A stretch of 60,937 bases of DNA from Alphaproteobacteria bacterium (GTDB taxonomy: Bacteria > Pseudomonadota > Alphaproteobacteria > SHVP01), in contig VGES01000021.1 of NCBI GenBank assembly GCA_016869765.1, forward strand, positions 1-60,937, given 5' to 3'. Of the stretch, positions 21,400 to 26,166 are shown one piece after another. Below the pieces are notes generated by a model. It did not search any database and was not told the origin of the DNA. It saw nothing but the letters and a program-made list of their open reading frames with translations. Position numbers and translations under genes: made by a program. Positions within the stretch are counted from its first letter, which is position 1; every line of letters begins with the position of its first letter.

Positions 21400-22440
21400 T
21401 TATTGCGGAAAAATGAAGGTCTGGGCGGGGTCGGTCGACAACTGGACGTGCTCGCCCGGCGCCGGCGGCGTATTTCCCGGGATGTGGGCGCGCACCGAAG
21501 CCTCGCTGCCGATAACCTGCGCATCGACGACGCTGAACGGCCCCACCGACTTCGAAACCACGACCTGGGCCTGGACGCCTGCCGCGATTGCGGCGGTCGC
21601 AGGAAGAACCGTCACGCCCGAGCACCGCACCACGACTTCGGCGCTCGCGGTCCCGGGCGGGCAGACGAAGCGACCGATCGGAGTCTCAACGGTGCCACCC
21701 GTGACCGCGCCCGCGAAGCGATTGACGGCACCGAAGAACGCGGCGACGAACGCATTGAACGGACGGCCATAGATGGTCGCGGGCGACGCGACCTGCACCA
21801 ACGACCCCTCGCGCATCACCGCAACGCGATCGGCCATGCGCATCGCTTCCTGTGGATCGTGCGTGACCAGGAGCACCGGACTTCCCGCCTCCTTCAGAAG
21901 TGCCAGGGCTTCGTCGCGAACGCGATCGCGCAACTGGATGTCGAGACCGGAGAACGGTTCGTCGAGCAGCATGATGCGCGGGTTCGGCGCCAGGGCCCGG
22001 GCCAGCGCGACGCGTTGCTGCTCGCCGCCCGACAGTGCATGGGGATAGCGTTCGGCGTACCCCGCCAATCCGAGACGATCAAGCAAGGAGGTGGCACGAC
22101 GACGATCTTCGGCTCCCGACCGGCGACCGAGCCCGAAGCATACGTTCTCGATGACGCTGAGGTGTGGAAACAACGCGTAGTCCTGGAACACCAGACCGAT
22201 GCGGCGCGCCTCGGGCGGCAGGTTGACGCCCTGGTTCTCGGCGGCCGCCTCACCATCGATCAGGATGCGACCGCGTTGCAGTGCCTCGAGCCCGGCCGCG
22301 AGGCGCAGGACCGAGGACTTGCCGCACCCCGACGGACCGACGAGGCAGACGACTTCTCCCGTTCCGACCGTGAGTGAAAAATCTGCGACCGCGCTCTTGT
22401 CGCCGTAAGAGTGAGAGACGGCCTCGAACGCCAGAGTCAT
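21400..22440 (-). CDS. fbpC: Ferric-iron ABC transporter ATP-binding protein
   Basis: FbpC powers ferric-iron import across the inner membrane. The 346-residue protein has Walker A VGPSGCGKSSVLRLAAG near residue 33, the signature LSGGEQQRVALARAL near 141, and Walker B RIMLLDEPFSGLD. A C-terminal TOBE-like beta domain (about 245-346) is common in this subfamily. Its ATG overlaps the fbpB stop as ATGA. The operon promoter carries two Fur boxes, which supports iron rather than spermidine or thiamine as substrate. Confidence 0.93.
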   Translation of the reverse strand: MTLAFEAVSHSYGDKSAVADFSLTVGTGEVVCLVGPSGCGKSSVLRLAAGLEALQRGRILIDGEAAAENQGVNLPPEARRIGLVFQDYALFPHLSVIENVCFGLGRRSGAEDRRRATSLLDRLGLAGYAERYPHALSGGEQQRVALARALAPNPRIMLLDEPFSGLDIQLRDRVRDEALALLKEAGSPVLLVTHDPQEAMRMADRVAVMREGSLVQVASPATIYGRPFNAFVAAFFGAVNRFAGAVTGGTVETPIGRFVCPPGTASAEVVVRCSGVTVLPATAAIAAGVQAQVVVSKSVGPFSVVDAQVIGSEASVRAHIPGNTPPAPGEHVQLSTDPAQTFIFPQ

Positions 22441-24110
22441 GACGACGAGCCTGGGCGAGCGCCGGCGATCGCGCGGGACAACAGGTAGACCGGCACGATT
22501 CCGACGAGCACGATGGCCAAGACCGCACTGGCCGAATCGGCCAATCGTTCATCATGGGCAAGCTCGTAAGCACGAACGGCGAGCGTATTGAAGTTGAACG
22601 GCCGCATTATGAGTGTCGCCGGCAGTTCCTTCATGACGTCCACGAACACCAGGAGGCCCGCCGTGATGAGCGACCCCCCGATCATCGGGACGTGGACCCG
22701 GCGCAGAGTCTCCCGTGGCCCGGCGCCGAGGGTACGCGCCGCTCCATCGATGGACGGCGTCACCTTGGCGAGACCGGCTTCGGCCGTATTGAAGGAGACT
22801 GCGAGGAAACGCACGACATAGGCGAAGATGAGCGCGAACAACGTGCCCGACAGGATGAGTCCGGTCGAGATCCCGAGGACCTCCCGCGCCCAATCATCGA
22901 TGCGATTGTCGACCCAAGCGAACGGTACGAGCACTCCGACGGCTAGCACCGATCCCGGCACGGCATACCCGATGCTGGCCAACCTGGTGCTGAGGGTCAT
23001 CGGCCTGCTCGGCCGCAGCCGCGCGGCGTAGGCGAGCGTGGTGGCTATCGCAACGGCGACGGCGGCGGCGACGGCGGCCAAAGCGACGCTGTTCCAGGCA
23101 AGTCGCACGAAGCTAGCATCGACCATCTGTGGCGCCGTGCGAATCGCCCAGACGAGGAGTTGGCCCCCGGGCAGCAGGAATCCGAACGTCACCGGAAGCG
23201 CACAGGCGAGGATCGCCAGAACCCTCCGCCACCCATTCAATTGGTAGCCAGGCAGCGGCCGATACCGGGTCGTCGTGTGAAAGTACTTGGCTTGACCGCG
23301 CGAATAACGCTCGAGCGCGAGAATGACGAAGACAACGGCGAGCAGCATCGCCGAGAGCTGAGCCGCGGATTGTGGATCACCGAGACCGAACCATGTGCGA
23401 AAGATGCCGGTCGTGAACGTATCGACGGCGAGGAAATCAACCGCGCCAAAATCGGACAACGCCTCCATCAGCGCCAGCGCGACCCCAGTGACGATCGCCG
23501 GGCGCGCCAGCGGCAATGCGACCTGAACGAAGCTCTGCCACGCGCTACGCCCGAGCACGCGACTCGCCTCCAACACACACACCGATTGTTCGAGGAATGC
23601 GGCGCGGGCCAGGAGATAGACGTAGGGATAGAGCACGAGCCCCATCACCAGGAACGCCCCGAACGTGCTGTGGATCGGCGGAAACCAGTAATCCTGGCGC
23701 GACCAGCCGAACAGCTCACGTAGGCCGCTCTGGACGGGCCCCGCGAAGTCGAAAAGTCCGGCGTAGGTGAACGCGATGGCGTAACTCGGCACGGCGAGCG
23801 GCAACAGCAGCGCGATCTCGAAGATGCGCCGCCCGGGAAAGCGGCAGGTCGTGACGAGCCAAGCTGTCACCGTGCCAGTCACCAGCGTCGACAGCCCGAC
23901 GCCGACGACGAGCCAGAACGTATTCTCGAGATACCGCCCCAGCACCGTATCGACGAGATGCGACCAAACCTCGGTCGCCGGCGCAAACACGCTGAGCAGC
24001 ACGACCAACACGGGGACCGCGACCAACGCGGCCACGATGAAGGCGAAAAGCGGCCAGCCGCGCCCTGATCCGGCGCGGCTGACACGAGCTCCGAGGGCCG
24101 CGAGCGTCAC
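22437..24110 (-). CDS. fbpB: Ferric-iron ABC transporter permease
   Basis: The 557-residue protein is a tandem fusion of two permease domains with about twelve membrane helices, as in FbpB/SfuB. Each half carries an EAA-type loop that contacts FbpC: EASRVLGRSAWQSFVQVALP near 182 and DGAARTLGAGPRETLRRVHVP near 455. It starts at a GTG 21 bases after fbpA. It forms the membrane channel of the importer. Confidence 0.92.
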   Translation of the reverse strand: MTLAALGARVSRAGSGRGWPLFAFIVAALVAVPVLVVLLSVFAPATEVWSHLVDTVLGRYLENTFWLVVGVGLSTLVTGTVTAWLVTTCRFPGRRIFEIALLLPLAVPSYAIAFTYAGLFDFAGPVQSGLRELFGWSRQDYWFPPIHSTFGAFLVMGLVLYPYVYLLARAAFLEQSVCVLEASRVLGRSAWQSFVQVALPLARPAIVTGVALALMEALSDFGAVDFLAVDTFTTGIFRTWFGLGDPQSAAQLSAMLLAVVFVILALERYSRGQAKYFHTTTRYRPLPGYQLNGWRRVLAILACALPVTFGFLLPGGQLLVWAIRTAPQMVDASFVRLAWNSVALAAVAAAVAVAIATTLAYAARLRPSRPMTLSTRLASIGYAVPGSVLAVGVLVPFAWVDNRIDDWAREVLGISTGLILSGTLFALIFAYVVRFLAVSFNTAEAGLAKVTPSIDGAARTLGAGPRETLRRVHVPMIGGSLITAGLLVFVDVMKELPATLIMRPFNFNTLAVRAYELAHDERLADSASAVLAIVLVGIVPVYLLSRAIAGARPGSSS

Positions 24111-24131: not shown

Positions 24132-25151
24132 CTAGCGCCAACCCACCCGATCGAAGATGCGCACGGCCTCGGCGTTGTGCACGGTGAGTTGCTTGAGGGC
24201 CACCGTATCGGCCTTGAACGTGCCGAAGCCCGCAACGATGCTCGAGGGCGCGATGCCCTGGCGGATCGGGAATTCGTGGACCACTTCCGCGTAAACACGC
24301 TGAGCATCATCGCTTGCCAGGTATTCCAGGAAGCGGATCGCCTGCTCGCGGTTCGGCGCGTGGCGGGCAACGGCGCCCGTCGAAACGTTGACGTGGACGC
24401 CACGACCCTGCTGGTCGGGCCAAAACAGCCCGATCTTGGCGGCCACGGTTCGCTGATCACCAGCCTCCGAGGCCAGCATGCGGCCGAAGTAGTAGGTGTT
24501 TGCCAGCGCAACATCACCCTCACCGGCCGCGAGTGCCAAGAGCTGGTCCCCATCTCCGCCTTGGGGTTTGCGCGCGAGATTGTCGGCGAACCCCTTGGCC
24601 CATTTCTCCGCGGCAGCAACGCCGCTGTGGGCAATCATCGAGGCCACCAGCGATTGGTTGTAGACATGGGTCGACGAGCGAACGAGCAAGCGCCCCTTCC
24701 ATTTCGCGTCGGTCAACGCGTCGTAGGTCGAGAGTTCCTCCGGTTTGACCTTCGCCTTGTTGTAGAAAATGGGGCGTGCGCGCACGGAGAGACCGAACCA
24801 AAGCCCGTCCGGGTCGCGGTAGATCTCCGGGATCAGCCGCTCCAGAGCTGCCGATCTGATCGGCTGGAGCAATTGCTGTTCGACCGCCCGCCCCATCCGA
24901 CCGACGTCGGCCGTAAGCAGTACGTCCGCCGGGCTATTGCGACCTTCGCTTTTCAGGCGCTCGATCAGGGCATCGTCACCCGCAGTGATCAGGTTGACCT
25001 TGATTCCGGTTTGCGCCGTGAACAACTCGAGTTGCGGTTTGATCAGCGCTTCCTGCCGCGCCGAATACACGTTGACCTCCGCGGCGTTCGCCGCCAACGG
25101 AAGCGACAGCACCGCACCAGCCAACGACAACCACCAACGCGCCCGAACCAT
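24132..25151 (-). CDS. fbpA: Ferric-iron ABC transporter substrate-binding protein
   Basis: FbpA is the periplasmic receptor that delivers Fe3+ to FbpBC. The 339-residue product starts at ATG 25151, chosen because AGGGAGA lies seven bases upstream; a TTG two codons earlier is unlikely. A Sec signal peptide (ending AANA) precedes AEVNVYSARQEALIKP. NTYYFGRM contains the paired tyrosines that bind iron in this family. The promoter lies between this gene and the scpB stop and carries two Fur boxes. Confidence 0.94.
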   Translation of the reverse strand: MVRARWWLSLAGAVLSLPLAANAAEVNVYSARQEALIKPQLELFTAQTGIKVNLITAGDDALIERLKSEGRNSPADVLLTADVGRMGRAVEQQLLQPIRSAALERLIPEIYRDPDGLWFGLSVRARPIFYNKAKVKPEELSTYDALTDAKWKGRLLVRSSTHVYNQSLVASMIAHSGVAAAEKWAKGFADNLARKPQGGDGDQLLALAAGEGDVALANTYYFGRMLASEAGDQRTVAAKIGLFWPDQQGRGVHVNVSTGAVARHAPNREQAIRFLEYLASDDAQRVYAEVVHEFPIRQGIAPSSIVAGFGTFKADTVALKQLTVHNAEAVRIFDRVGWR

Positions 25152-25220
25152 GATCAAATCTCCCTAGTTTCGGTAAGGTTGAGCTGCCCTGCTTGTAGCG
25201 CCTTGTGGCAGATCAACAGA

Positions 25221-25235
25221 TGCGACCTATTCGCA
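25221..25235 (-). promoter_or_regulatory. Fur box 1 (downstream of the fbpA -10)
   Basis: TGCGACCTATTCGCA is a 7-1-7 inverted repeat with two mismatches. It directly follows the -10 hexamer, where bound Fur would block initiation. Its orientation and spacing match box 2, 28 bases away. Confidence 0.7.
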
Positions 25236-25264
25236 CTAATACTGCAAATGCGAATTATTCGCAA
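25236..25264 (-). promoter_or_regulatory. fbpA promoter
   Basis: On the minus strand TTGCGA (25264-25259), a 17-base spacer and TATTAG (25241-25236) form a sigma-70-like promoter. The -35 lies inside Fur box 2, and the -10 abuts Fur box 1. Confidence 0.6.
25249..25263 (-). promoter_or_regulatory. Fur box 2 (over the fbpA -35)
   Basis: TGCGAATTATTCGCA is a perfect 7-1-7 palindrome and fits the proteobacterial Fur consensus form TGCGAATnATTCGCA. It covers the -35 region of the fbpA promoter, so iron-loaded Fur should repress the importer. Confidence 0.8.
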
Positions 25265-25353
25265 CAATGAAATATGGTCACCACCAAGGGGTCGAGCAAC
25301 CGGCACGGCCCCGCGAACTGTTTATCTAGTTGTCCGAACGAGCCCTGATCGGG

Positions 25354-26166
25354 TTAGCGATCTACATCTCGACGTGGAGCCGCCATGACGGGCACCACAC
25401 CCTCGGCCACTTCGGGCGGCCGCTGAACGGGCAAGGCCTCTTCGCCTTCGTCATCGATCGGAACATGACGCTCGCCGTCCGCGCTGCGCTCATCCGAAGG
25501 ATCCTCGCTCGGTGGCTCGAACAGGTCTCCGGCCTCCCCTGCTTCCTCGAGGCCGGCCTCGTCGGGCAACGGCCCCTCCTCCGCGTCACGACGACGAAGG
25601 GCGGCCTCCTCGGCCTCGCGAACCATCGCCTCCGGCGGGTCGGCCCGTAGCAATCCCGACGCGCGTAGGTCTTCGAGGCCAGGCAGGTCGGCGATGCCAG
25701 CCAGGTCGAAATGCTGCAGGAACTTGTCCGTGGTACCGTAGGTCAACGGCCGACCCGGAACCTTGCGCCGTCCGCGCGGCCGAATCCACTCCGACTCCAT
25801 CAGGATATCGAGTGTCCCGGGCGAGAGACTGACGCCACGAACCTGTTCGATTTCCGCGCGCGTGATCGGCTGGTGGTAGGCGATGATCGCCAACGTTTCG
25901 ACCGCCGCTTTCGACAATCGGCGGGGCACCGTGCGCTCCCGCTCCAACAAGAAGGCGAGATCGCTCGCTGTCCGGAAGGTCCACTTGTTCGCGACTTTCA
26001 CCAGATGGACGCCACGCCCCTCGTAGAGGCGCCCGAGCTCGCTCAATAGGGCCGGCAGGTCGATGCCTTCGGGCAGCCGTGCCGCCAAGCTTGCTTCATC
26101 GAGTGGCTCCGCCGCCGCAAACAGCAACGCCTCGACCATCCGCAGGTATTGCGCCGTATCGTTCAT
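25354..26166 (-). CDS. scpB: Segregation and condensation protein B
   Basis: ScpB is the winged-helix (kite) subunit of the SMC-ScpAB condensin. The 270-residue product carries VEALLFAAAEPLDEASLAARL at its start. ETLAIIAYHQPITRAEIEQ and RGRRKVPGRPLTYGTTDKFL are the two winged-helix signatures. Residues from about 190 on are a long acidic, low-complexity tail not needed for the fold. It starts 24 bases after scpA. Confidence 0.95.
   Translation of the reverse strand: MNDTAQYLRMVEALLFAAAEPLDEASLAARLPEGIDLPALLSELGRLYEGRGVHLVKVANKWTFRTASDLAFLLERERTVPRRLSKAAVETLAIIAYHQPITRAEIEQVRGVSLSPGTLDILMESEWIRPRGRRKVPGRPLTYGTTDKFLQHFDLAGIADLPGLEDLRASGLLRADPPEAMVREAEEAALRRRDAEEGPLPDEAGLEEAGEAGDLFEPPSEDPSDERSADGERHVPIDDEGEEALPVQRPPEVAEGVVPVMAAPRRDVDR

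Follow-up and report, generated by a model that had tools for sequence, protein, structure and literature searches.

A predicted Fur-controlled promoter of the Magnetospirillum type upstream of a ferric-iron importer operon in an alphaproteobacterium

The window analysed here, a whole stretch of 60,937 nucleotides (60.9 kb) of alphaproteobacterial DNA, contains a Fut/Fbp-type operon (25151-21400) whose upstream region carries two Fur-type boxes, A and B. Judged from its sequence, this region is a real, conserved and ordinary Fur-type promoter of the kind bound by Magnetospirillum Fur (MgFur), and is predicted to be Fur-controlled. The two boxes are very probably operators of the Fur protein encoded in the same genome, which would repress futABC when iron is sufficient. 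According to the initial annotation, the promoter of a ferric-iron importer carries Fur-type boxes; both the boxes and the nature of the target were borne out.

Both boxes lie in the 196-bp intergenic region (25158-25353) between the futA-like gene and its upstream neighbour (Table 1). Box A matches the motif TGCGAATTATTCGCA with no mismatches and is, as originally described, a perfect 7-1-7 palindrome over the -35. The second copy with two mismatches, reported directly past the -10 and 28 bp away, is also present there as box B, with both mismatches in one half-site (GGTCGCA). In a motif scan of the whole window these were the sole sites with three or fewer mismatches. Box A overlaps TTGCGA and box B begins one base past TATTAG, in a promoter assigned from consensus alone; transcription of futA would start at about position 25229. 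The description of the box pair as phased fails, because 28 bp correspond to 2.67 helical turns and the spacing varies among relatives (28, 31, 36, 38 and 36 bp in the family, with no common phase); helical phasing of boxes A and B was accordingly rejected. A search of the fut leader against Rfam gave no match to a structured RNA.

Table 1. Features of the futA promoter region and of the futABC operon (window coordinates)
Feature	Position	Strand	Basis or remark
Upstream neighbour gene	25354-26166	-	Same strand as futA
Alternative promoter, GTGACC-16-AATAAT	25254-25281	-	Consensus match only; box A would sit on the -10
Predicted -35, TTGCGA	25259-25264	-	4/6 sigma-70 consensus positions; TTGCGA-17 bp-hexamer pair in 5/5 family promoters
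Fur box A, perfect 7-1-7 palindrome TGCGAATAATTCGCA, on predicted -35	25249-25263	-	Motif scan; half-site of the footprinted MgFur operator
Predicted -10, TATTAG (17-bp spacer)	25236-25241	-	4/6 sigma-70 consensus positions
Fur box B, TGCGAATAGGTCGCA, 2 mismatches, right after predicted -10 and over predicted start site	25221-25235	-	Motif scan; second boxes in relatives
Ribosome binding site AGGGAG, 8 bases ahead of ATG 25151	25160-25165	-	Sequence
futA/fbpA, ferric-iron substrate-binding protein	24132-25151	-	Structure-database matches; tyrosine ligands
futB/fbpB, fused two-domain permease	22437-24110	-	Two BPD_transp_1 stretches; 21 bp past futA
futC/fbpC, ATP-binding subunit	21400-22440	-	ABC_tran; 4-bp overlap with futB

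The operon combines a three-tyrosine binding protein, a permease and an ATPase, as in Fut/Fbp importers. For futA, the ATG at 25151 is a likelier start than the listed TTG at 25157. The FutA protein matches Synechocystis FutA1 (2pt1, E 2.8e-104) and FbpA 1q35 (E 5e-78), as well as FutA from Trichodesmium, in which three C-lobe tyrosines bind iron (PMC6254336). Three C-lobe tyrosine ligands are kept in the window's FutA (VYNQS and NTYYF) and align with the iron-binding tyrosines of the Trichodesmium protein. The N-lobe His-Tyr pair of FutA1 is replaced by Gln-Glu in the window's FutA and by Gln-Pro in FbpA 1q35, which we take to bind iron through three tyrosines. General NCBIfam models proposed other substrates (2-aminoethylphosphonate), with all scores far under the cut-offs.

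Four Fur-family proteins are encoded in the genome, including one Fur, one Irr (over the model cut-off) and two Zur-like proteins (under it). A check for a Fur with an intact iron site had been suggested, and the single Fur indeed keeps its metal and DNA residues: K15, Y56 and R57 are present together with the metal residues H33, E81, H87, D89, H90, E101, E108 and H125, and the protein equals MgFur at 17 of the 17 listed DNA- and metal-contact positions. It is 70% identical to MgFur (94/135) and shares 89 of 132 residues with 5fd6, which we take to be Mur from Rhizobium leguminosarum (RlMur). Against the NCBIfam Fur equivalog PRK09462 it scores 105 bits (cut-off 146). Because RlMur shares every listed metal residue with this protein, the metal residues fit Fur and Mur alike, and the assignment to one or the other is made from the target genes.

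The closest characterized counterpart is the feoAB1 promoter of Magnetospirillum gryphiswaldense, which Fur binds in high-iron cells (PMC3251581). With Mn(II), MgFur footprints TTAATCGCAACTCATTCGCAATTGC on this promoter, and binding is abolished by EDTA (PMC4506495). The complement of the footprint TTAATCGCAACTCATTCGCAATTGC contains TGCGAAT, the half-site of box A. The window resembles this system (PMC4506495; PDB 4ray/4rb group) in the TGCGAAT half-site, the 7-1-7 frame, the iron-transport target and a Fur with all listed contact residues kept, but pairs a perfect palindrome with a second site ahead of a ferric ABC importer, whereas feoAB1 has a single footprinted site of 25 bp whose second half is imperfect. 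With the Fur box of Escherichia coli and Pseudomonas aeruginosa (GATAATGATAATCATTATC) the window shares the 7-1-7 frame and a regulator of the Fur family, and differs in having TGCGAAT rather than TGATAAT half-sites and separate rather than overlapping sites. Thus, the "classical Fur-type box" of the initial annotation is Fur-type, but of the Magnetospirillum kind and not the E. coli GATAAT kind, and for this reason the use of Fur here fits what is known for the Magnetospirillum group. The related argument, that a Fur box is informative in a class in which many members use RirA or Irr, held for the presence of Fur and for RirA, which was not found in the genome, but not for Irr, which is encoded beside Fur.

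Paired boxes recur at the orthologous futA promoter in four genomes of the same family (G001, G002, G003 and G008), which belong to two other genera. The pairs are TGCGAATCGTTATCA and TGCGAATGATTTGCA in G008 (31 bp apart), TGCGAATGATTATCA and TGCGATTGATTTGCA in G002 and G003 (36 and 38 bp apart), and TGCGAGTGATTATTA and TGCGATTGATTTGCA in G001 (36 bp apart). Like the window, these promoters have two boxes, TTGCGA as a possible -35 and a second box past the -10; unlike the window, their spacings are 31-38 bp and their half-sites are often ATTATCA or ATTTGCA. The pair formed by TTGCGA, 17 bp and a second hexamer is found in all five family promoters, where it puts the first box on the -35 and the second one 0-10 bases past the -10, and in the G001 and window promoters a different hexamer pair scores above it. 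The perfect TGCGAATNATTCGCA palindrome occurs only in the window's genome among the ten genomes compared. Because the second box of G008 and its flank (TTGCGAATGATTTGCATTTGCAGT) are similar to the window's box A and its flank, box-by-box homology is uncertain while the arrangement is similar, and box positions may have turned over between relatives. In an uncultured Rhodospirillaceae MAG, TGAGAGTCATTCGCA lies ahead of futA. At all loci taken together, 23 second boxes were seen within 90 bp of a reference box versus 2.5 expected, an approximate enrichment because the set contains related sequences and overlapping registers. Elsewhere in G002 (L028 1501-1560), TGCGAATCATTCTCA was seen before a Peripla_BP_2 binding-protein gene, and more boxes, which overlap, follow 30 and 36 bp downstream of it.

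A sample of 387 genomes from across the class contained the exact motif at 33 sites in 31 genomes, versus 2 sites for a reversed control pattern. Contexts were read at 29 loci outside the window's own genome. Seven of them precede firm iron or haem genes, encoding TonB receptors (two), ExbB, Fut/Fbp proteins (two), a Peripla_BP_2 protein and 5-aminolevulinate synthase, and two precede Mn/Zn-type genes (MntH and SitA/AztC-like). Four more are possible (two ECF sigma factors, a cupredoxin and, by eye only, a Bfd-like protein), and about 16 have no clear metal link or lie inside coding frames. A location mainly upstream of manganese genes, named at the outset as evidence against Fur, was therefore not found, and the target genes favour iron over manganese as the signal of this Fur. 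Upstream of mntH in another alphaproteobacterium (L048 1501-1515), GGCCTCATGGATTATAT and ATATAATCCATGAGGCC flank the exact motif and extend it to a longer, nearly perfect inverted repeat. At a further locus (L057 1501-1540), upstream of a SitA/AztC-like gene, TGAGAATCATTCTCA lies 23 bp downstream of an exact TGCGAATTATTCGCA; this promoter holds two half-site types. In the window's own genome, ATGAGATATTATAACATATC (contig C2; L035, about 2440-2470) lies ahead of a ZnuA-type gene and looks by eye like a Zur-type palindrome; another znu cluster, which includes a Zur-like gene, is on contig C92.

The metal residues shared with RlMur and the two class-wide exact sites ahead of MntH and SitA/AztC-like genes would also suit a Fur homolog that is of the Mur type and responds to Mn(II), which would place the importer under manganese control, and Rhodobacter Fur/Mur acts on sitA with Mn (PMC6956336). 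The Mur box at sitA and mntH in rhizobia and Rhodobacter likewise has an orthologous regulator and a related palindrome; however, it serves manganese genes, whereas the target in the window is a ferric-iron importer. Manganese control is made improbable by this target, by the class-wide predominance of iron and haem genes over Mn/Zn-type genes, and by the slightly closer relation of the genome's Fur to MgFur than to RlMur. In addition, no Nramp was found in the genome, and its two ZnuA-type loci showed no Fur box.

Still less probable is control of the fut promoter mainly by Irr, RirA or IscR, with the palindromes in a secondary role. The genome's Irr scores 202.5 bits with the IrrA model (cut-off 150), but the fut intergenic region contains no match to an Irr-type (TTTAGAA/TTCTAAA) or IRO-type (TGA-N9-TCA) site. 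No RirA was found in the genome, its sole Rrf2 protein reaching 40.5 bits with the RirA model (cut-off 193); this protein is IscR-like (188 bits with the IscR model versus a cut-off of 207.6), and its gene precedes a cysteine desulfurase-like gene. That the boxes are chance palindromes in an AT-richer promoter is hardly credible. With local base composition and bases treated as independent, chance would yield about 6e-7 perfect copies and 5e-4 copies with two mismatches in the 196-bp region, and 0.004 perfect copies in the 3.99-Mb genome. The genome scan for the 15-base motif that had been recommended gave one perfect copy, which is box A at futA. Sites with up to two mismatches number six genome-wide, including boxes A and B, versus about five expected, so that box B is weak when taken alone; it becomes credible because it lies 28 bp from box A. 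Both copies sit in one promoter, and the pairing recurs at orthologous promoters.

Under Fur control, box A (over the -35) and box B (at the transcription start) would both be occupied by Fe(II)-Fur dimers when iron is sufficient, and these dimers, flanking the -10, would exclude RNA polymerase from the futABC promoter. Under iron scarcity, Fur would leave the boxes and the ferric importer would be made. We infer Fe(II) as the physiological metal, the occupation of both boxes and repression as the outcome. The box centres, 28 bp apart, leave room for two dimers of about 25 bp each side by side, a spacing that does not imply contact, and cooperativity between the dimers is possible.

In scans of its own genome, futABC was the only promoter combining near-consensus boxes with a clear iron function. 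Relaxed half-site scans gave as their best matches outside fut one intergenic one-mismatch site on contig C104 and mostly intra-coding sites. Apart from the C104 site, which has no obvious link to iron, neither strict nor relaxed scans of this genome turned up a further strong intergenic box whose target is clear, although such scans may miss weaker functional Fur sites (the feoAB1 operator departs from the strict motif at three positions). The C104 site, TGCGAGTAATTCGCA (C104:3464-3478; L002 1501-1515), lies between divergent genes for a methyltransferase and an isochorismatase-domain hydrolase; about 0.2 such one-mismatch sites are expected by chance. The single TonB-dependent receptor found in the genome (contig C32; L065 1006-3318) most resembles BtuB and B12-receptor models, under the cut-off, and has a cobalamin riboswitch ahead of its gene. 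TonB receptors of the siderophore type were not found in this genome.

A Fur regulon of about one strong operon, futABC, with Irr and IscR running the remaining iron control, is a tentative and rather unlikely reading of these scans, and stays only a possibility because the scans may overlook weaker sites that function. If true, such a regulon would place the bacterium between Fur-run and Irr-run alphaproteobacteria and offer a simple case for the sharing of iron control by Fur, Irr and IscR; this near single-operon regulon is the possible, mild novelty of the system. The fut promoter itself adds a clean, conserved and predicted Fur target from beyond the well-studied alphaproteobacteria, together with a sequence picture of the MgFur-type site with TGCGAAT half-sites that helps regulon prediction in uncultured relatives.
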